The notes beneath the pieces were generated by a model that made no database searches, was not told the origin of the DNA, and worked only from the letters and a program-made list of their open reading frames with translations. DNA of 64,000 nt from Rhodopirellula sp. SM50 (GTDB lineage Bacteria; Planctomycetota; Planctomycetia; Pirellulales; Pirellulaceae): contig NZ_NTFY01000070.1 of assembly GCF_002289565.1 (NCBI RefSeq), positions 1-64,000 on the forward strand, written 5' to 3'. Numbering within the stretch: position 1 is the first letter of the stretch; each line of letters opens with the position of its first letter. Shown here piece by piece: positions 37,222-45,740 of the stretch. The translations under genes and the position numbers were made by a program.

Positions 37222-37647
37222 TTACTGTGAGGGGCGACTTCGGCGTTCATCGCCGACGACGATGGCGGAACCGTTGTGAATCGACTGCGGGGCGACGAGA
37301 TAGAACGGCTGGTCGGCAACGATTTCTCGGCCGTCAGTGAGGAATAATCGCATCCGGACACACCACCGCAAACGGATCAGCCGGCCGTGATAGCTCAACG
37401 GTGTCGCCGGCAGCAAGCAGGAGAGCGAGTGTTTGTCGGCCAGCCCGAAGCGGCGAATCCGCTCTTCCTCATAACGCTCAAAATGATGCACATGCAGGTC
37501 GGTGTCGCCCTTGCCCTCGGAATACCAGAGCACGGAGATCTCGATCGCACTGAGCGAGTCCAGCGTGACGCGGGACACTCGCCAGGTCGCCGAAAGCTCC
37601 TTTCCGCCCTCGTAAATGCCGTCCTCGCGGCATAACGACACGCTCAC
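37222..37647 (-). CDS. Small beta-rich protein, third gene of the alpha-CTD operon
   Basis: 141 residues from a GTG at 37647 that overlaps the TGA of the preceding gene (GTGA), the pattern of translational coupling. An ATG at 37752 in the same frame would overlap that gene by 109 bases and adds Arg/Ser-rich sequence, so I reject it. The chain is beta-rich: IYEGGKELSATWRVSR, LSAIEISVLWYSEGKGDTD and RLIRLRWCVRMRLFLTDGREIVADQPFYLV. It looks like an immunoglobulin-like or arrestin-like half domain, similar in character to the C-terminus of the preceding protein. There is no signal peptide or membrane segment. Function is unknown. Confidence 0.72.
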   Translation of the reverse strand: MSVSLCREDGIYEGGKELSATWRVSRVTLDSLSAIEISVLWYSEGKGDTDLHVHHFERYEEERIRRFGLADKHSLSCLLPATPLSYHGRLIRLRWCVRMRLFLTDGREIVADQPFYLVAPQSIHNGSAIVVGDERRSRPSQ

Positions 37648-38744
37648 CGCGGGCTGCGTTTCGGAGGCAAGCCTGGAGGATGAACGACGACGGGATAGCT
37701 TCGGCAGAACGATGGCCACGGACGGGCTTCTCCAGAGACGATCACTTTCCATCGCACCGCATTATGCGATGCCACAAAGGAATGCATCACATTGGATGGA
37801 AGGTCGATGGTGAATTGTTGCTCCCAAGGTGCCTGCGGGTCAACTCGAACATCGCGTTCGGCACACAATTCTTGCGTGAAAACTTCATATCGCTCCACCC
37901 GGACATCTGTCCCCTGACGATAAACCGTCTCTTCCTCGCACGCGACACGCACGCGCAACCGCCGCAGCCGTAGCCGCCCGGATTGTGAAACGAACAGGCG
38001 GTATTTGCAGCCTGGGTAGAGCGGATGGTCGCTGATTTCGACAATCGTCGGCCCGATCCCCGCCGATCGACGCAACTGGGCCAAAAAATACCGAAACGAC
38101 CAATAACCGACCCCGCCAAACGGTAGGAGCAGTCCGGTCAGAATATAACGCGGACTTGAATGCCAGAATCCGAGCACGACCACGGCCAGCAAGACGAACC
38201 AGACCGCGTTCCAGAGCAGTGCCAGCAGCGCGGGGCCGACCAGTTCATTGCCCGACGTCCCCTCGGCGGCCAAACGGTACGTCAAACGCTCGCCCGGACT
38301 GTCCGTCAGCGCGTTGCCGCGTGGCACCGATGGCATCTTTTCGATCTCAGTCGCCGACGGAACGATGATCTCGATCGACGACGCCCGCTTGGCCATGGCC
38401 GACCGGCGCTCATTGCTGGCCCCCACGCGAACCAGGCGATAAATCAATCCGCCCGCGCCGGACCCGATCGCCGCGACCCCCAAGACGCCGAAAATCCAGC
38501 TCGCCAAGCCGCCCCCGTCAAGCTCTTCAGGCGTCACGGCTTCGGGCTGGATTTTCGTTAACTCTTTGAGTGTCTCCAGCTGGTCCCAGGATGACAGCTG
38601 GCTGATCACCACCAACGACACGACAAACACGCCGACCAGGAAGACGCCGCTGTAAAAGGCGGTTTCCCAGAGCAGGCTGCGGAGCTCCGTGCCGATGAAC
38701 CGCTTTCCCCGTTTCTTGCTCCAGGGTCGAAGAAAGCGCGCCAT
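37644..38744 (-). CDS. Four-helix membrane protein with C-terminal beta domain
   Basis: 366 residues from an ATG at 38744, one base after the stop of the alpha-CTD gene. Hydrophobic helices lie at ~28-50 (AFYSGVFLVGVFVVSLVVI), ~84-106 (ASWIFGVLGVAAIGSGAGGL), ~172-193 (LALLWNAVWFVLLAVVVLG) and ~198-218 (YILTGLLLPFGGVGYWSF). The C-terminal ~130 residues are beta-rich (YRLFVSQSGRLRLRRLRVRVACEE to WKVIVSG), possibly arrestin-like. No family recognised. Start chosen by coupling and because MARFLRPWSKKRGKR gives a positively charged N-terminus. It is the middle gene of a three-gene operon, so it probably forms a complex with the 141-residue protein. Confidence 0.75.
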   Translation of the reverse strand: MARFLRPWSKKRGKRFIGTELRSLLWETAFYSGVFLVGVFVVSLVVISQLSSWDQLETLKELTKIQPEAVTPEELDGGGLASWIFGVLGVAAIGSGAGGLIYRLVRVGASNERRSAMAKRASSIEIIVPSATEIEKMPSVPRGNALTDSPGERLTYRLAAEGTSGNELVGPALLALLWNAVWFVLLAVVVLGFWHSSPRYILTGLLLPFGGVGYWSFRYFLAQLRRSAGIGPTIVEISDHPLYPGCKYRLFVSQSGRLRLRRLRVRVACEEETVYRQGTDVRVERYEVFTQELCAERDVRVDPQAPWEQQFTIDLPSNVMHSFVASHNAVRWKVIVSGEARPWPSFCRSYPVVVHPPGLPPKRSPR

Positions 38745-38745
38745 A

Positions 38746-39021
38746 TCAACGGGGTTGCTGAGGTCGTCGGCTGGGGCGATAGAACCCAAGCTCTTCCAAC
38801 GCGGTGTAAACTTCACCGAGAGTCTTCTCGCCGAAGTTGCTGATCGACAGCAAACGCTTGGGCGTCGCGCCCAACAGATCACGCACCGTCAGGATACCGG
38901 TTTCTTCAAGACAATTCGTCGTGCGAACCGACAACCCCATCTCGGCGATACTCAAATCCAAACGCTCGTTGCGCAGACGGGCTTCCTCGTCGGCGCGGCT
39001 CAGTGGAATTCGCGTGCTCAT
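38746..39021 (-). CDS. Free-standing RNA polymerase alpha C-terminal domain protein
   Basis: 91 residues. Residues ~21-83 match the RpoA C-terminal domain: LSVRTTNCLEETGILTVRDL and LLSISNFGEKTLGEVYTAL. By eye alignment to Escherichia coli alpha, the DNA-contacting residues Arg265, Asn268 and Lys298 correspond to Arg33, Asn36 and Lys66, so UP-element-like DNA binding is plausible. The alpha N-terminal domain that assembles with polymerase is absent. The ATG at 39021 is fixed by AAGGAG six bases upstream; an earlier start at 39045 is less likely. It heads an operon with two membrane/beta proteins, with a one-base gap to the next gene. It could act as a transcription regulator or a DNA or protein adaptor. 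Function inferred. Confidence 0.85.
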   Translation of the reverse strand: MSTRIPLSRADEEARLRNERLDLSIAEMGLSVRTTNCLEETGILTVRDLLGATPKRLLSISNFGEKTLGEVYTALEELGFYRPSRRPQQPR

Positions 39022-39027
39022 TCCAAA

Positions 39028-39033
39028 CTCCTT
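39028..39033 (-). promoter_or_regulatory. Ribosome binding site deciding the alpha-CTD start
   Basis: AAGGAG on the minus strand, six bases before the ATG at 39021. It favours this start over the one at 39045. Confidence 0.8.
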
Positions 39034-39222
39034 TTGGTCGGGCAAATGAAGGGTGGCAAGATTTGTCGAGAGAGTAAGCGATGTTCACGCGGTTGGCAAA
39101 GAGCCTGAATCGAAAATCCAACGTTTTGCGGGAATCACTCTTGGCTTGTGGGTGCTACGGTTTGCAAGCAAACGTACTGCAGGGCAACCCGGAACCTGCT
39201 GACTCGTACGTTTGCTGTGTCG

Positions 39223-39720: not shown

Positions 39721-39842
39721 CGTTCCAAGGCGGAGCCTTGGAACGAGGTGGTAGGCGGAGCCTTGAAACGAGGTGGTGCCCCACGCCCTGCGCCCTACGC
39801 CCTGCGCCCCACGCCCTGCGCCCCACGCCCTGCGCCCTACGC
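39721..39842. repeat. B-like arms followed by a 14-bp minisatellite
   Basis: CGTTCCAAGGCGGAGCCTTG at 39721 and a partial second copy GGCGGAGCCTTGAAACGAGG are B-family-like. From 39779, CCCCACGCCCTGCG and CCCTACGCCCTGCG alternate for about 4.5 units of 14 bp. This reaches the stop codon of the large ATPase gene (39837-39839) and slightly into its coding end. Confidence 0.8.
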
Positions 39843-42800
39843 CGCGACCAATTCGCGACTGAGCGCCGCGTACTGAATCCACTCGGTGACCTCCTCCAGA
39901 TCCGGCAACTGGCCCCCGCGGATGATCCGCTTGCCCTCGTTGCTTCGGGCGACCGGGTCGATCAACGCGAACAATTCACTCGGGTCATACTCCGCAACTT
40001 CCTCCGCCGTCGTGACATCCGCAGCCACCAACAACTGCGCGTCGTGCCCACGCAGCATCGGGACTCGGCAAACCAAGATCGCCTGGTTCTGCCACGCCGT
40101 GATCACCTCTGCGTCGATCCGTCGGTGATCCAAGCGGTCGGCCAAGTCGGCCGCGTCGGCACGGAGCAGGTCTTCCACGGTGACGATGTCGACCGCTTCA
40201 AGTCGTTCAGCCATCCGTGCTCCGATCGACGGCGCGTCCACGATGGGACTGTCGCGTTGGAGATAAAAACGAAGTTCCTTGTCGCCGCTTTCGGAGTCGA
40301 ACGACCGAGTCTCATCACGCATCCGCTCCCGTCGTCGCGAACGATCCGACGACGAGCGTTCGGATCCGCGTCGTGACGAGCGGCTGCTTGAACGTCGCGA
40401 CCGCGACTCACCGTCGCGACGGCTTCGCGTGCGCTCGCTCCGCTCGGTTTCAGAGTCGCTGGTTCGGTAGCCCTGATCCGCGGTTTGCGACGAATCCGCG
40501 TCGCGGCGTGATCCCGACTCACCGACGCGACGGCTGCGTCCGTCGGAACCGATGTCGTGACTGCGGGCGGTGCCGCTGATGGATCGGCTGCCGTTTCGAG
40601 CCCGATTGGATTGCCCATTGGCTCGACCATTGGACCGACCGGACAGTCCGCCACTGCGTTGCCGCGAACTGGACGAACGCCGGTTTGACCGGGATCGGTT
40701 GGATGAGGCACGGACAATGTTTCCGTTGTCATCGACGAATTCGTATTCATAACGATCGTCGTCCAGTTTGGCATCAACCGGTTTGCGATCGCGTTGCTGG
40801 CGGAGCACCCGACCGTCGACCGTCTGGTGATCTCGCACCATGCCCAGCGGGTTGTCGTCGGTGTCCACGTTTGCCGCCGCGATCCAGCTGGTGATCCGCG
40901 ATAGTTCGTAACTGGTGCCGCTGAGCAGGATCCGCTGCCCGCGTTCGGTCGCCAGAAACGCTTCCACGCGATCGAGCAGATCGGCCGGGTCGATCGATGC
41001 CAGGTGCCCCGCATCGGCGATTCCGCATCCGACCAGCACCCGGGCGTCAAATCCACGCAACTGGGGGACATGACAAACCAAGCGGCTCTCGGCCTGCCAA
41101 CGCCGAATCGTCGCCGCGGTCACGCCGGCCAGCCCGAGCGAATCAGCCAGCCGGTTGGGATCTTGATTCATCAGATGGTTGATGTGCGTGACCTGCAATC
41201 TGCGCAGACGCGCTGCGGCGACCGCGTCGATCGAAGGCGCTTGATCGATGGGGCTATCGACGGACAGGAAAAACGGAGACACCGGTCCGCGCTGGCTGGC
41301 CGCCGGATCGCCTGACGGCTTGGATTGCGGGTGCTCCGCCGACGACCGAGACGCGGCCGCTGGTGCACTGTGGCTGTGCAGCGTTTGTGCACGGTGAGCC
41401 GATTGCGCAGCCGGCGCGGTCGTGTAGGAATCGGCGAAATAATATCCGTCGTGCCAATGACCCGCATCGTGTTGAGATCGATCACCGGACGTCGGATCCG
41501 GAGATCCCGCCGGCATCGACGCCGGGTAGGCCGTCGCCTGCGTGGCGGGAGCAACCGGTGCGGCTGACGCCGCCGGCCCCATGTAAGCAGACCCCAGAGA
41601 GTGAGACCCTGCATAGGGTGAAATCCCGTACGCTTCCTGCCAAACAGCGTCCAGATTGCGATTGATATCGGCCAGTGAGGCACCGATCGGCAGGTGATCA
41701 AAGTACTCGTCGTGATAGCGGTCGACGAAGGCATCGCTGTGCGGCATCGGGTCGTTGGAAGCTACACCGTTGGAAGCCAGACCATTGAAAGTCGGCGGCA
41801 AGTGCGACGGCGCGTGGGGACCGGCGTAACCTTCGTCCGAAAAATGCGGGCTCCAAAGCGGTCGGTGCTCGTGTCGGACGCGTTGACCATGGATCGTGAA
41901 CACCTGGCCTCCGTGGCGAGCGACTTGGTCCGCGAACATCGAATCGCTGGCCAACAAGACGACTTGTCGTCCATTTTTGGCAAAGTCGTCCAGTGCCGCG
42001 AGCACCGAAAGGTTGACGCCCGCGATGGGCGAACCGCCGGCATGGACGGGGTAGTCTGCGTCCGTTGCGTGAATCGCCCCCAACGTCTCCCCGACTTCTT
42101 GATGGCGCAACAGTTCGCGCGGAACTTCGATCACCAGCGGGATGGCGCGTCCGGTTCGGGCCAGCAAGTCGGCTGCGGCCATGCGTAGCGCCAGTGCCGC
42201 CAGCGCCCGATCGGCCGCGGGGCAATTCGCTTCTTCACGCCCATCGATCTTGGCAAACCCGATTCGCGTCGCCGTCTCGATCTGGCCGGGGGCGGTGGTG
42301 AAATCTGCGTCGTTCCAATCCAGTCGCGACAACCGGCCACCGGAGAGACGGACCAACCATTGGCTCGCTTCATCAGCCAACGGAGACGCCGAGCGGGAGA
42401 CCGCTCGGGGCACGCCGAGCATTTTGATCAATTCGGCGCGACGACGTTTCAGCCATTTCACCCGTGGCGTCTCGCCCAAGCTCGGCTCGGCAAGCGAGTC
42501 GAGTGCACGCAATTCGGACTCCACCGCGTCGATCTCCCGTTGCAGCGTCGCGGGTTCCCACGTGACGCCGTTTCGCCCCGGATAGCCGCGGCCGGTGTAG
42601 CCGACGTCAACGCCAGCCCATTGGGAAGCATCCAGCCCAGGGTAGGCGGATTGCGGTGCGGCGACGGGGCTCATCGGCTGGGCCAACATCTGACGACGCA
42701 GCCGCGCCGCCCGGGCGACACAGCGATCGAGTTGTGCGGTGACTTGATCGAGTTCTTTGCTCCGCGCGATCGCTTCACCATCAAGGTGATTGATGTACCA

Positions 42801-44495
42801 GGCCGACCAGGTTTGCCGATGATAGGCGTCGTCCAACCAAGACGGATAGCGGAGCCGTTCTGCCAACTGGCGATCGCGAACCAAGCCTTCGCGATAGGCC
42901 AACAGCCGCTCGATCGTCGCGACGACCCACTGCTCGCTGCGTCGCAAATCGTACAACTCGTGGTCTCGACGCACGGCCAGGGCGTGCTCGGCGGCGCGTG
43001 CTTCGCGCAACGGCTCGGTCGTGGAATAAGCAAACCGGAATCCGTGCCGGCGAACGTTTTGCAAGTCGTCTCGGATCGCGCGGAGCGAATGCGCCAGCGA
43101 GTGGCTTCCCCGATAAGCCAGATCCGCAGGCAGATCGCGATACCAGACCGGAGTGGCCGAGTGTGGGTGATCGTAGCGGGCCGCAAGCCAATCGACTTGG
43201 CGCACGATCGCTTCGATCCGCAGATCGATTTCGTCTGGCCAACGCGACGGACGGGCGGCGGCGGAAAACGCCGACCACGACGCTGCCATCGAAGGGTCGT
43301 CGGCGTAGTGATCCAGCGAGGAAAGGAAGTGATGCATGCGCTGGCGGCGCAGCATGTGTTCCGACATCGGCAACGCCCCCGTCTCACGCAACGGCCGATC
43401 AAAGGTGTCGCGGTGAACGGCGGACGAGATGATTTCGCGCAGACCGGACAACTCCGTCATCACGCGACGCCAGCGTGTGATTTGGGCATCGACGTCGATT
43501 AATTTTCGCCGCAACTCGGCGTCGACGTCCAATGCCGCGCCGTGGCTGAGCGCCCGCCCGCCGGCCAGTTCGGCACTCGCGTCGCGGGCATAGGGCGACG
43601 CGGTGATCGGTGCGGTGTAGCGAACGCGATTGCGATCGAATTGCAGATGGGCCAGCCAACGCGACAGCTCGCTGTGCCGGACACGAAGCTGCCAAATCTG
43701 ATCGTGAAGCTCGGACAGCTCGGCACCGATCGGTGCGCTGTGATCGGGCCACTGTGCGGATTGCTGGGCCGATTGCAGAGCCGACTGCAGGTCCGCCAGC
43801 CGGGACTGCAGCTGTCGTCGCCGCACGGCGATGGATTCGGCGTCCAACAGGGAGCAATGCGGGCCGGCGGAGGTCTGCCGAATCGATGCCAATTCGGCTT
43901 CGATGCGGGCCAGTTCATCGCGCATCGCACGTCGTGGTGCGTGCTGGTCGGACGATGCTGCCGGCGAGAGCCCGCTGACGGTCGAACGATTGACCGGCAA
44001 TCCGGCGAACAAGGCGGGATCGCCCAGTCCGCTGCGGAGGCAGGCGGCGATGACTCGGGAAATGCTGATCACGGCAGTGTCGGTGACGATGCCGTCGACG
44101 ATCGATTCGGGGATGCGAATCGATTCCAAGGCACGGGTCGCGTCGGTCGAATCGGCGATCCCGTTGATCCAGCTGCCGTGCAGCCAATCGAATCGATGCG
44201 AGGCCTCGCCGCGGGATTCGAATTCGATGGTCCGTCGTCCGCTGGGCGTGCCGTCGTGCTCACGCCGGCAATGGATTTTCCCGTTGCGGTCAGCCCAGAC
44301 CACGCGGCCGGCCGAGGAGCTCATCATCCCCAGCGGGTAGTCGCGTCGGATCAGCGAGTCCCGGATGAAGCGGACGATCGCCGTTTTCCCAGAACCCTCC
44401 GGCGTGCAAATCACGTTCAAGCATTCTGAGAAGGGCCCCAGCTCGACACGAGTCAGGGGGCCGTGAGTGTCGATATCGATCCGGTCCAACAACAT
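39837..44495 (-). CDS. Large P-loop ATPase with RS-rich linker and two DUF4332 domains
   Basis: 1552 residues. The N-terminus resembles SbcC/RecF-type AAA proteins: VICTPEGSGKTAIVRF gives Walker A at ~31-38, with Thr in place of the first Gly. Long Arg-rich helices follow, with many RRQLQ/ELSRW stretches suggesting coiled coil. A second ATPase-like half comes at ~700-880 (WLVRLSGGRLSRLDW, RQVVLLASD). Its expected Walker B strand reads IPLVIEVPRE, where Asp is typical. A Pro/Ala/His-rich linker precedes DUF4332 copy 1 (~1075-1209). Then comes an Arg/Ser-rich, likely disordered stretch (1262-1409) and DUF4332 copy 2 (1410-1552). DUF4332 is a helix-hairpin-helix-like domain, so DNA binding is inferred. 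Start set by AAGGAGGAG seven bases before ATG 44495. Confidence 0.85.
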   Translation of the reverse strand: MLLDRIDIDTHGPLTRVELGPFSECLNVICTPEGSGKTAIVRFIRDSLIRRDYPLGMMSSSAGRVVWADRNGKIHCRREHDGTPSGRRTIEFESRGEASHRFDWLHGSWINGIADSTDATRALESIRIPESIVDGIVTDTAVISISRVIAACLRSGLGDPALFAGLPVNRSTVSGLSPAASSDQHAPRRAMRDELARIEAELASIRQTSAGPHCSLLDAESIAVRRRQLQSRLADLQSALQSAQQSAQWPDHSAPIGAELSELHDQIWQLRVRHSELSRWLAHLQFDRNRVRYTAPITASPYARDASAELAGGRALSHGAALDVDAELRRKLIDVDAQITRWRRVMTELSGLREIISSAVHRDTFDRPLRETGALPMSEHMLRRQRMHHFLSSLDHYADDPSMAASWSAFSAAARPSRWPDEIDLRIEAIVRQVDWLAARYDHPHSATPVWYRDLPADLAYRGSHSLAHSLRAIRDDLQNVRRHGFRFAYSTTEPLREARAAEHALAVRRDHELYDLRRSEQWVVATIERLLAYREGLVRDRQLAERLRYPSWLDDAYHRQTWSAWYINHLDGEAIARSKELDQVTAQLDRCVARAARLRRQMLAQPMSPVAAPQSAYPGLDASQWAGVDVGYTGRGYPGRNGVTWEPATLQREIDAVESELRALDSLAEPSLGETPRVKWLKRRRAELIKMLGVPRAVSRSASPLADEASQWLVRLSGGRLSRLDWNDADFTTAPGQIETATRIGFAKIDGREEANCPAADRALAALALRMAAADLLARTGRAIPLVIEVPRELLRHQEVGETLGAIHATDADYPVHAGGSPIAGVNLSVLAALDDFAKNGRQVVLLASDSMFADQVARHGGQVFTIHGQRVRHEHRPLWSPHFSDEGYAGPHAPSHLPPTFNGLASNGVASNDPMPHSDAFVDRYHDEYFDHLPIGASLADINRNLDAVWQEAYGISPYAGSHSLGSAYMGPAASAAPVAPATQATAYPASMPAGSPDPTSGDRSQHDAGHWHDGYYFADSYTTAPAAQSAHRAQTLHSHSAPAAASRSSAEHPQSKPSGDPAASQRGPVSPFFLSVDSPIDQAPSIDAVAAARLRRLQVTHINHLMNQDPNRLADSLGLAGVTAATIRRWQAESRLVCHVPQLRGFDARVLVGCGIADAGHLASIDPADLLDRVEAFLATERGQRILLSGTSYELSRITSWIAAANVDTDDNPLGMVRDHQTVDGRVLRQQRDRKPVDAKLDDDRYEYEFVDDNGNIVRASSNRSRSNRRSSSSRQRSGGLSGRSNGRANGQSNRARNGSRSISGTARSHDIGSDGRSRRVGESGSRRDADSSQTADQGYRTSDSETERSERTRSRRDGESRSRRSSSRSSRRGSERSSSDRSRRRERMRDETRSFDSESGDKELRFYLQRDSPIVDAPSIGARMAERLEAVDIVTVEDLLRADAADLADRLDHRRIDAEVITAWQNQAILVCRVPMLRGHDAQLLVAADVTTAEEVAEYDPSELFALIDPVARSNEGKRIIRGGQLPDLEEVTEWIQYAALSRELVAA

Positions 44496-44502
44496 GGTCG
44501 GG

Positions 44503-44511
44503 CTCCTCCTT
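44503..44511 (-). promoter_or_regulatory. Strong ribosome binding site of the large ATPase gene
   Basis: AAGGAGGAG on the minus strand, seven bases before the ATG at 44495. It rules out the longer frame beginning at 44555. The divergent spacer 44496-44798 holds nothing else I can identify. Confidence 0.85.
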
Positions 44512-44798
44512 GGCCACAGCAACAATACATTTTCAGCGGCCCGAACGACGGCCAAAATTCATTTCGACGTTGCGGGAAACGGGCAGCTGGGATGCGGGAT
44601 CGGGGCACTTTAGTGAAAGTCGTGTTTCACGAAAAGAGGAATCTGCGGCCGCCTTGTCTTGACGCGCCGCCCGCAAAAACCGTAGTCCAGGGGCGTGAAA
44701 CGACGTCTGATCGCGGTCGCCGACGTTCGCATGACGCTGACGGGCCGATGCCGTGTTTGGCCCCCGACACATCCGATTTCTTCGCCGATACTCTGCCC

Positions 44799-45740
44799 AT
44801 GCCGCGATGCCACCTCCCGCCGCGATCGATTCGACAGCCCGGCAATCCCCGCCGTCGTTACTCACTGGCGATGCCCCTGTGGCTTGCCGCTCCCCTTCTC
44901 GCCGCCCCGATCTTGCTGGCCGGATGTGCGTCCTGGTCCAGCTGGCCCAGCCATGACGATCCGCATCAAGAACCCCGCGCGGCCGCGCTACCGCTGAAAA
45001 AAATCCCACGCTCGATCGAGCTGGAAACGCGTTTTGTCCAGATCCGCTTCGACCCGACCGATCCCGACCAGCTGCAATCGATGTGGCAATGGGTGGACGA
45101 AACCGTGCTGCCGCCGGAAACCCGAAAGGTGCTCTATCACAACGGGTTACGGATCGGGAAAGCGGCTCAGCTGGACCGGCTGGTGGGCAAACTCGATTCG
45201 CTGCAATCGGCCCAACCGCCCGACGTCGTCGCCGAATTCCTCAGCTCGGTCTCGGTTTCCAGCCACCAATCCGAAGGCTCCAAGACGATCCCGATGCGGC
45301 TGGGAAAACGCTACGAATTGCCGGTCCGATTGCCGGTGCAAGGCGACCAGGTGGTGATCATCCACGAGGAACCGCAACCGGTCGGCCAGACGCTTCGAGA
45401 CCCCCAGTTTCTGTTGGCGGTCACTCCCCAACCGGGCAGTTCCGCCGCACAAATTCGCCTCCGGGTGCGCCCCGAAATTCAGCACGGCGACATGCAGCAA
45501 GACTGGGTCCAGGGGGATGCGGCCTTGCGGATCGACGTTCGCCGTCAATCCTGGTCACTCGATGCGATGGAATTTGAACTGATCGGCGGCGAGGGCGATC
45601 TATTTGTGATCTCGGAAACCGCCGACCGAAAGGGGCTGGGCACGGAGATGTTTGGGGGCAAAAACGTCGACCAAATGGAGCAACAAACGGTTTTGCTGAT
45701 TCGCATCGCCAACGTCCCGACGCCCGCGGAAAAGCTGTAA
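44799..45740 (+). CDS. Hypothetical lipoprotein
   Basis: 313 residues from ATG 44799, or 289 from ATG 44871. The longer form gives a positively charged n-region (RRRYS) before the hydrophobic core MPLWLAAPLLAAPILLAGC, whose LAGC is a lipobox, so the mature protein is probably lipidated at this Cys. The mature part starts RSIELETRFVQIRFDPTDPDQ and contains DETVLPPETRKVLYHNGLRIG and later beta-rich stretches (PVRLPVQGDQVVIIHEE, AQIRLRVRPEIQHGDMQ). No family recognised. It is in the same direction as alaS, 78 bases upstream of it. Predicted periplasmic, membrane-anchored. Confidence 0.75.
   Translation: MPRCHLPPRSIRQPGNPRRRYSLAMPLWLAAPLLAAPILLAGCASWSSWPSHDDPHQEPRAAALPLKKIPRSIELETRFVQIRFDPTDPDQLQSMWQWVDETVLPPETRKVLYHNGLRIGKAAQLDRLVGKLDSLQSAQPPDVVAEFLSSVSVSSHQSEGSKTIPMRLGKRYELPVRLPVQGDQVVIIHEEPQPVGQTLRDPQFLLAVTPQPGSSAAQIRLRVRPEIQHGDMQQDWVQGDAALRIDVRRQSWSLDAMEFELIGGEGDLFVISETADRKGLGTEMFGGKNVDQMEQQTVLLIRIANVPTPAEKL

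Follow-up and report, generated by a model that had tools for sequence, protein, structure and literature searches.

In this study, we analyzed a window of 64,000 nucleotides, the whole stretch taken from contig NZ_NTFY01000070.1 of Rhodopirellula sp. SM50, whose genome was Stieleria-like and belonged to the Pirellulaceae. Within it lies a gene encoding a protein of 1552 amino acids (aa), in which an SMC/RecF-like head and a predicted coiled coil are followed by two copies of the DUF4332 domain, separated by a linker rich in arginine and serine (RS). The ATG start codon is located at 44495 and the stop codon at 39837-39839. Because AAGGAGGAG sits immediately upstream of this ATG, the TTG start of the longer open reading frame (ORF) was considered unlikely. 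The nearest named relative was found in Planctomycetes bacterium TBK1r, with 89% identity in the best segment. We read the protein as an SMC-like helix-hairpin-helix (HhH) protein with an RS-type linker. The positions of its features are collected in Table 1.

Table 1. Features of the gene, with window positions, strand and basis of assignment (HMM, hidden Markov model)
Feature	Position	Strand	Basis
Complete gene, encoding 1552 aa with an SMC/RecF-like head, a predicted coiled coil, two DUF4332 copies and the RS-rich linker	39837..44495	minus	ORF, Pfam, motifs, AAGGAGGAG
SMC/RecF-like head halves and intervening helical region, about residues 1-890	41826..44495	minus	hhalign; predicted long helices
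Altered Walker A TPEGSGKT, residues 31-38	44382..44405	minus	motif reading, head alignment
Walker B place PLVIEVPR, residues 786-793, E-V instead of an acidic pair	42117..42140	minus	aligned with PVLLNDLF of L061
DUF4332 copy 1, residues 1075-1211, Asp at the first hairpin Gly position	40863..41273	minus	Pfam and domain HMM
Inter-copy linker, residues 1212-1407, R 22%, S 21%, K 2%	40275..40862	minus	composition
RS-rich core, residues 1262-1409	40269..40712	minus	limits from the initial annotation; composition
DUF4332 copy 2, residues 1408-1552, hairpin glycines retained	39840..40274	minus	Pfam, domain HMM, model, alignment

The RS-rich linker and its homologs

The initial annotation had described the core of the linker as made almost wholly of Arg, Ser, Gly, Asp and Glu. 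We found 27.7% S, 26.4% R, 10.1% G, 7.4% D and 6.8% E in this core; the enrichment was thus strong, and the wording was slightly too strong, as the five residues together made up 78%. The best 100-residue segment of the linker contained 55 R+S and 19 RS/SR steps. In both respects it exceeded the other ORFs of a sample of the same genome, which comprised 1,184,942 bases (about 12%) and 876 ORFs of at least 100 aa, picked mechanically with the longest first: the linker ranked first in R+S per 100 residues, with a runner-up at 40, and the next ORF reached 10 RS/SR steps. Some of the runner-up ORFs had a codon-position GC content unlike that of coding sequence, and L174 (40 R+S) was coding-like. 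Among the 765 coding-like ORFs, the best 100-residue R+S count averaged 19.9, with a standard deviation (sd) of 4.9.

By the usual definition, an RS domain spans 50 aa or more and has an RS content above 40%. The linker passed this compositional threshold in one 50-residue segment (residues 1349-1398), where 46% of the residues were in RS/SR steps and 68% were R+S; the best 60 residues reached only 0.38. The 196-residue linker as a whole held 27 RS/SR steps, compared with 18.6 after full shuffling (p 0.011) and 23.0 ± 3.6 after local shuffling. Since 86 of the 500 local shuffles reached 27, residue order contributes little beyond composition in this protein. Charged residues made up 41% of the linker, with a net charge of +13.

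Three other readings of the linker were rejected. A frameshift or shadow-frame artefact was rejected because both DUF4332 copies are in-frame, homologs share the frame, and synonymous exceeded non-synonymous change across the linker. The codon-position GC content of the linker (0.64/0.61/0.65) was flatter than that of the domains and by itself is no proof of coding. Expansion of a DNA repeat was rejected because Tandem Repeats Finder reported two short, low-score arrays; the linker used four codons for Arg and six for Ser. An Arg-for-Lys swap was rejected as a linker-specific signal because K was low throughout the protein, with R/(R+K) of 0.84 in the linker and 0.88 in the rest. The ratio of non-synonymous to synonymous substitution rates (dN/dS) in the linker was 0.22-0.28 among the window protein and its relatives L003 and L005, and 0.42 between the window protein and L004. 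In the same four pairs, it was 0.00-0.02 for copy 1 and 0.07-0.17 for copy 2. The linker was therefore constrained, though more loosely than the flanking domains. The substitution pattern indicated that it is under purifying selection.

The homolog set combined the window and the named loci with 78 fetched stretches, taken from among the matches listed in the family survey. Among 100 genomes sampled from the family, 78, in 55 of 68 genera, carried DUF4332 in some type of protein, as did 55 of the 148 sampled genomes of the class. Long ORFs with two DUF4332 copies numbered 64, of which 63 were distinct, the identical proteins of L010 and L069 being counted once. Another eight long ORFs with a single detected copy served in the head analyses only. 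The frame of L008 (Rhodopirellula baltica BR-MGV) breaks within copy 2, through either a real frameshift or a sequencing error; this locus was left out of the linker and motif counts and used in the head alignment. Linker length in the 63 proteins ranged from 8 to 275 aa. Of the linkers with 30 aa or more (61 in number), 50 were richer in R and 56 richer in S than the N-terminal remainder of the protein; in comparison with the 100 residues preceding copy 1, R was higher in 56 and S in 49. The mean composition was 17.8% R in the linker versus 11.9% in the rest, and 14.8% S versus 7.5%. R+S reached at least 30% in 37 of the 63 (length at least 30 aa) and at least 40% in 16. No comparable linker was present in two of the 63 proteins, L054 (8 aa) and L087 (17 aa), and eight linkers had less than 10% R, among them those of L066 (2%) and L086 (4%).

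In a tree of both domains (63 rows), the window protein fell inside an 18-row clade with support of 100/99. Linkers of 159-275 aa with 27-48% R+S were found in 15 of these rows, and the other three (L086, L045 and L051) had linkers of 70-97 aa with 14-19% R+S. Nine linkers of at least 140 aa fell outside the clade. Ten deeper long-linker members of the clade were 26-40% identical to the window linker, compared with 28-35% for shuffled sequences, and the alignment score was more than 2 sd above the shuffles in eight of them. As far as these alignments indicate, sequence is mostly lost in the deeper clade linkers, and composition and short motifs remain. The motif V[DN]GR was present in 13 of the 18 clade members and in none of the 45 others, and nearest relatives carried a YE..DD.G motif in the linker. 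These results agreed with the expected pattern of a linker with variable length and sequence but kept composition, within the window clade. Homologs lacking the RS linker had been named beforehand as refuting the initial proposal, and this is partly what we observed: short or R-poor linkers exist in the family, and the RS linker is kept in most of the clade. Because some homologs are short or R-poor in this place, the RS linker is a clade-level elaboration with parallels and not a family-wide feature.

One could argue that the linker serves as a passive spacer that drifts in composition: an ancestral, short Arg-containing tether would have been extended in one clade and in a few other lineages, with only its flexibility and length being important. 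The relatives with linkers of 8-17 aa are consistent with this explanation. On the tree, the long-linker state changed at least nine times and the state of at least 30% R+S at least 17 times, and several linkers of relatives hold simple peptide repeats, for example GSGSGS and SRSSQ. In addition, the same domain order was seen at 20 loci in other families of the class, which had been selected because two DUF4332 copies were listed for them; their linkers measured 33-109 aa, with 7-29% R. Purifying selection on the linker and the excess of R and S over the rest of most proteins argue against a passive spacer, as do the only two weak DNA repeats in the window linker and the embedded motifs; besides V[DN]GR, a DVVxM-like motif occurred in 12 of the 63 linkers against 0.36 expected after shuffling. 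Pooled over the 63 linkers, 580 RS/SR steps were counted versus 484 ± 18 after local shuffling (reached in none of 500 shuffles), an excess inflated by relatedness. Taken together, we regard a passive spacer as possible but somewhat unlikely. The likely history would be an ancestral Arg-containing tether, which was lengthened and enriched in Ser in several lineages.

The two DUF4332 copies

The presence of two DUF4332 modules was confirmed. Pfam DUF4332 (PF14229) matched two stretches of the protein (E 1.5e-34, 119.2 bits versus a gathering cut-off of 23.2), the single copies scored 90.4 and 39.7 bits, and the limits given by the domain HMM differed by at most two residues from those of the initial annotation. 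No DUF4332 match beyond these two copies was found in a genome-wide search at E <= 0.001. The two copies were 34% identical to each other. The overlapping Pfam family Cdd1 (PF11731) also passed its cut-off (30.6 versus 25.5 bits) at residues 1420-1457 within copy 2, a match covering just 38 residues of the 86-position model. For HHH_5 (PF14520), the window protein scored 23 bits versus a cut-off of 27. Four of the eight scanned relatives passed it (L053, 41.7; L054, 40.6; L065, 57; L080, 28.2), and L061, L069, L097 and L106 did not reach it.

The AlphaFold2 (AF2) model of copy 2 was all helical, with a predicted local distance difference test (pLDDT) score of 90.3. In VIA-align, residues 17-81 of the model aligned with chain D of the RAD51-paralogue complex 9q23 (Z 8.4, root-mean-square deviation (rmsd) 2.4, 62 aligned residues), and residues 68-153 aligned with the NusA C-terminal domain 1u9l (Z 7.7, rmsd 1.6, 68 aligned). 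The second half also aligned with the NusA C-terminal domain 5lm9 (Z 8.1, rmsd 3.4, 80 aligned). A phmmer search of copy 2 against PDB sequences returned only DNA polymerase IV, at E 0.37. Copy 2 is thus predicted to consist of two tandem HhH units, the first Rad51-N-like and the second NusA-AR-like, and copy 1 presumably folds likewise, given its 34% identity to copy 2.

The first hairpin Gly was retained in 61 of 63 proteins in copy 2 and in 3 of 63 in copy 1, where Asp was the commonest residue (42). The difference points to copy 2 as the nucleic-acid binder and to a structural or protein-binding role for copy 1. Mean pairwise identity was 50% for copy 2, 41% for copy 1 and 22% for the heads. 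Because both C-terminal domains are far better conserved than the heads, the conserved function of the family seems to reside at the C terminus. A different type of DUF4332 protein was encoded at L106 (2103-4091), with one C-terminal copy and an upstream region whose match to zinc-dependent phospholipase C stayed below the cut-off (24.8 versus 26.8 bits).

The SMC/RecF-like head and its motifs

On its own, the window protein remained below the Pfam cut-off for AAA_23 (11.9 versus 27 bits), and AAA_27 was not listed for it at E <= 1. The SMC/RecF-like head proposed in the initial annotation was nevertheless borne out through relatives: hhalign matched the window head profile to that of six relatives (99.9%, E 1.8e-37, 658 columns, residues 3-848). 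The four of these six that were scanned all passed AAA_23 (L061, 56.7; L080, 59.1; L065, 39.5; L097, 35.0 bits), and relative L069 passed AAA_27 (40.0 versus 22 bits). Relatives also matched SMC models, below the cut-offs of those models.

The ATPase motifs had been described as atypical, and the alignment agreed with this. The Walker A sequence TPEGSGKT departs from [AG]xxxxGK[ST] solely at the first residue (T31 for Gly). At the Walker B place, the window protein has PLVIEV, with E and V where motif-rich relatives carry D/N and D. The LSxG signature was not present at the aligned place, which reads CPAADRA in the window protein versus LSRGTRD in L061. Among 71 aligned heads, 37 had [AG]xxxxGK[ST], eight (including the window protein) retained GK[ST] but began with a different residue, and 26 showed neither pattern; two of these 26 were cut off by contig ends and four retained GK without S/T. 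Across the 61 readable rows of the tree, the GK[ST] state changed at least 10 times. Most of these changes were probably losses, because a lost P-loop is unlikely to return, and the head has probably decayed repeatedly across the family, as judged from the aligned motifs. No recognisable P-loop was found in L053, L062, L081 and L085, whose C-terminal domains are intact; these proteins are candidate natural SMC-type pseudo-ATPases.

Another possibility is an ATPase of the Rad50/RecN/YhaN type, acting in recombination or repair, whose active site is unusual but functional and still supports ATP cycling. Within the window clade, every readable row (17) retained GK[ST], all 18 rows had E at the Walker B place, many carried Ala or Gly at P-loop position 1, and L061, L080 and L104 retain the full P-loop, LSRG as the signature and N-D at Walker B. 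However, P-loop position 1 of the window protein is T, its Walker B place lacks a D/E pair and the aligned signature place has no LSxG (CPAAD), and the P-loop was lost outright in other branches. We therefore consider a working ATPase unlikely.

Genomic setting and possible role

In seven of the eight named relatives, alaS was the divergent neighbour of the gene, and in five of the eight the two-copy gene was followed by a solo gene for the C-terminal domain of the RNA-polymerase alpha subunit (alpha-CTD). Because these neighbours recur, the gene looks as if it occupies a stable chromosomal place. Four neighbouring proteins in the window were compared with Pfam alone, and three had no match. 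The alpha-CTD gene (38749-39045, minus strand, 99 aa) matched PF03118 at E 8.2e-20, and its product was 93-99% identical in six named relatives. In L009 (metagenome-assembled genome HKST-UBA42), the alpha-CTD gene and its neighbours lie across alaS from the usual side, which reflects a rearrangement or an assembly error. The adjacent minus-strand proteins at 37222-37752 and 37644-38882 had no Pfam match at E <= 0.01; both are kept near the gene in relatives and recur at 40% identity near the distant homolog L096. The divergent neighbour on the plus strand (44463-45740) had no Pfam match and carries a lipoprotein-like signal, LLAGC. Its true start is probably further in, because the listed GTG overlaps the start of the gene.

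A stable place next to alaS is unlike that of a mobile defence gene, and this bears on a possible defence role as an SMC-like protein comparable to LmuB, a subunit of Lamassu. PADLOC LmuB models matched the relatives L069 (E 3.1e-16) and L061 (E 2.3e-15); these matches probably reflect the common SMC-like head. At E <= 0.01, the window protein itself matched only PtuA in PADLOC, and weakly (E 3.1e-4, 18.2 bits). A defence role appeared extremely unlikely, although a partner may be present among the neighbours that had no Pfam match.

The neighbouring alpha-CTD gene would accord with a factor on the RNA side, in which RNA polymerase or RNA would be contacted by the NusA-AR-like HhH units, with the RS linker binding RNA in the manner of SR tails. 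The alignment of the second half of copy 2 with NusA C-terminal domains and the single 50-residue segment that passes the usual RS-domain threshold (0.46) are in line with such a factor. However, a Pfam scan at E <= 1 listed no RRM, KH or S1 domain, the head is of the SMC-like, mostly DNA-associated group, and a fold match shows no function. An RNA-side factor was thus judged very unlikely.

The explanation that we tentatively favoured, as quite possible, is a DNA-associated chromosomal scaffold of the SMC/RecF type in Planctomycetia, in which the RS linker would give multivalent, charge-based contacts. The head probably binds ATP, hydrolyses it poorly, and would hold or switch a dimer formed through the helical region. 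Nucleic acid would be held chiefly by copy 2, with its retained hairpin glycines, and copy 1 would be structural or protein-binding. The flexible charged linker may let the two HhH blocks reach separate segments of DNA (or RNA), and many weak arginine contacts may favour bridging, local crowding or condensation. A more far-reaching proposal, which we consider quite unlikely, is that the linker is a bacterial RS domain: serine-phosphorylatable, located in an SMC-like protein with a failing head, tuning multivalent condensation of DNA or RNA in the planctomycete nucleoid, and arisen several times from an Arg-containing tether between HhH modules.

Several observations weigh against the scaffold. 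The linker is a polyampholyte rather than a strong polycation, with a net charge per residue of 0.07, and we infer its disorder from composition alone. It is not essential to the job of the family, because L054 and L087 manage with 8 and 17 aa. VIA-align Z scores of 7-8 are moderate for helical folds, and Foldseek alone with the copy 2 model returned no match at E <= 0.001. The AF2 model of the head was poor (pLDDT 46), with long helices predicted at low confidence. The motif states were read from one alignment of very divergent heads; at 22% identity, single motif rows may be misplaced and some apparent losses may be misalignments. Finally, GK[ST] and the Walker B glutamate throughout the window clade speak for some retained nucleotide function.

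We compared the protein with known systems. As in SMC/Rad50/RecF-type ABC ATPases (AAA_23, AAA_27; YhaN-like), the head is split, Walker A lying close to the N terminus and the Walker B place following long helices, and relatives pass the Pfam cut-offs; the window protein differs in failing the Pfam cut-off, in having no canonical Walker B or signature residues, and in having two DUF4332 copies. The archaeal SMC-related proteins ASRP/ClsN/Sph share a coiled coil and terminal Walker motifs, and ASRP was the best NCBIfam match of L061 (E 2.5e-19), but L061 scored 69.3 of the 300 bits needed (NF045487), and the window protein was unlisted at E <= 1. The report on ASRP describes zinc hooks and Walker motifs and does not contain the term "helix-hairpin-helix" (PMC9389158). 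The halves of copy 2 resemble the Rad51/RadA N-domain and NusA AR units in predicted fold; here, in contrast, two units are fused in each DUF4332 and the pair is doubled around the linker. The segment with 46% RS/SR-step residues and 68% R+S resembles the RS domains of eukaryotic SR proteins, but the window protein is bacterial, has no RRM (Pfam, E <= 1) and no long alternating RS runs, and contains more acidic residues and glycine. We know of no SR kinase for the bacterial case. According to a report on the Bacteroides Rho insert, this is likewise a charged disordered segment with short conserved motifs in a bacterial nucleic-acid protein, and it was shown to govern RNA-dependent condensation (PMC13269538). 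Rho differs in being a helicase with a KE-rich and not RS-rich insert, and condensation, shown there, would apply here by analogy.

Among the matches listed in open-licence literature (titles and starts of abstracts), neither a bacterial RS domain nor a description of this two-copy DUF4332 family came up; DUF4332 was named in one paper, on heliorhodopsin. RS domains are usually regarded as a eukaryotic hallmark. A bacterial RS-type segment, selected and located between likely nucleic-acid modules, would therefore offer a test of R/S composition apart from splicing. To our knowledge, the proteins behind nucleoid condensation in planctomycetes have not been established. Planctomycete nucleoids were reported as condensed (PMC8567305). 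Within the family, the heads range from motif-rich SMC-like ones to others in which no P-loop can be recognised, a natural series that could reveal which SMC functions persist without ATP.

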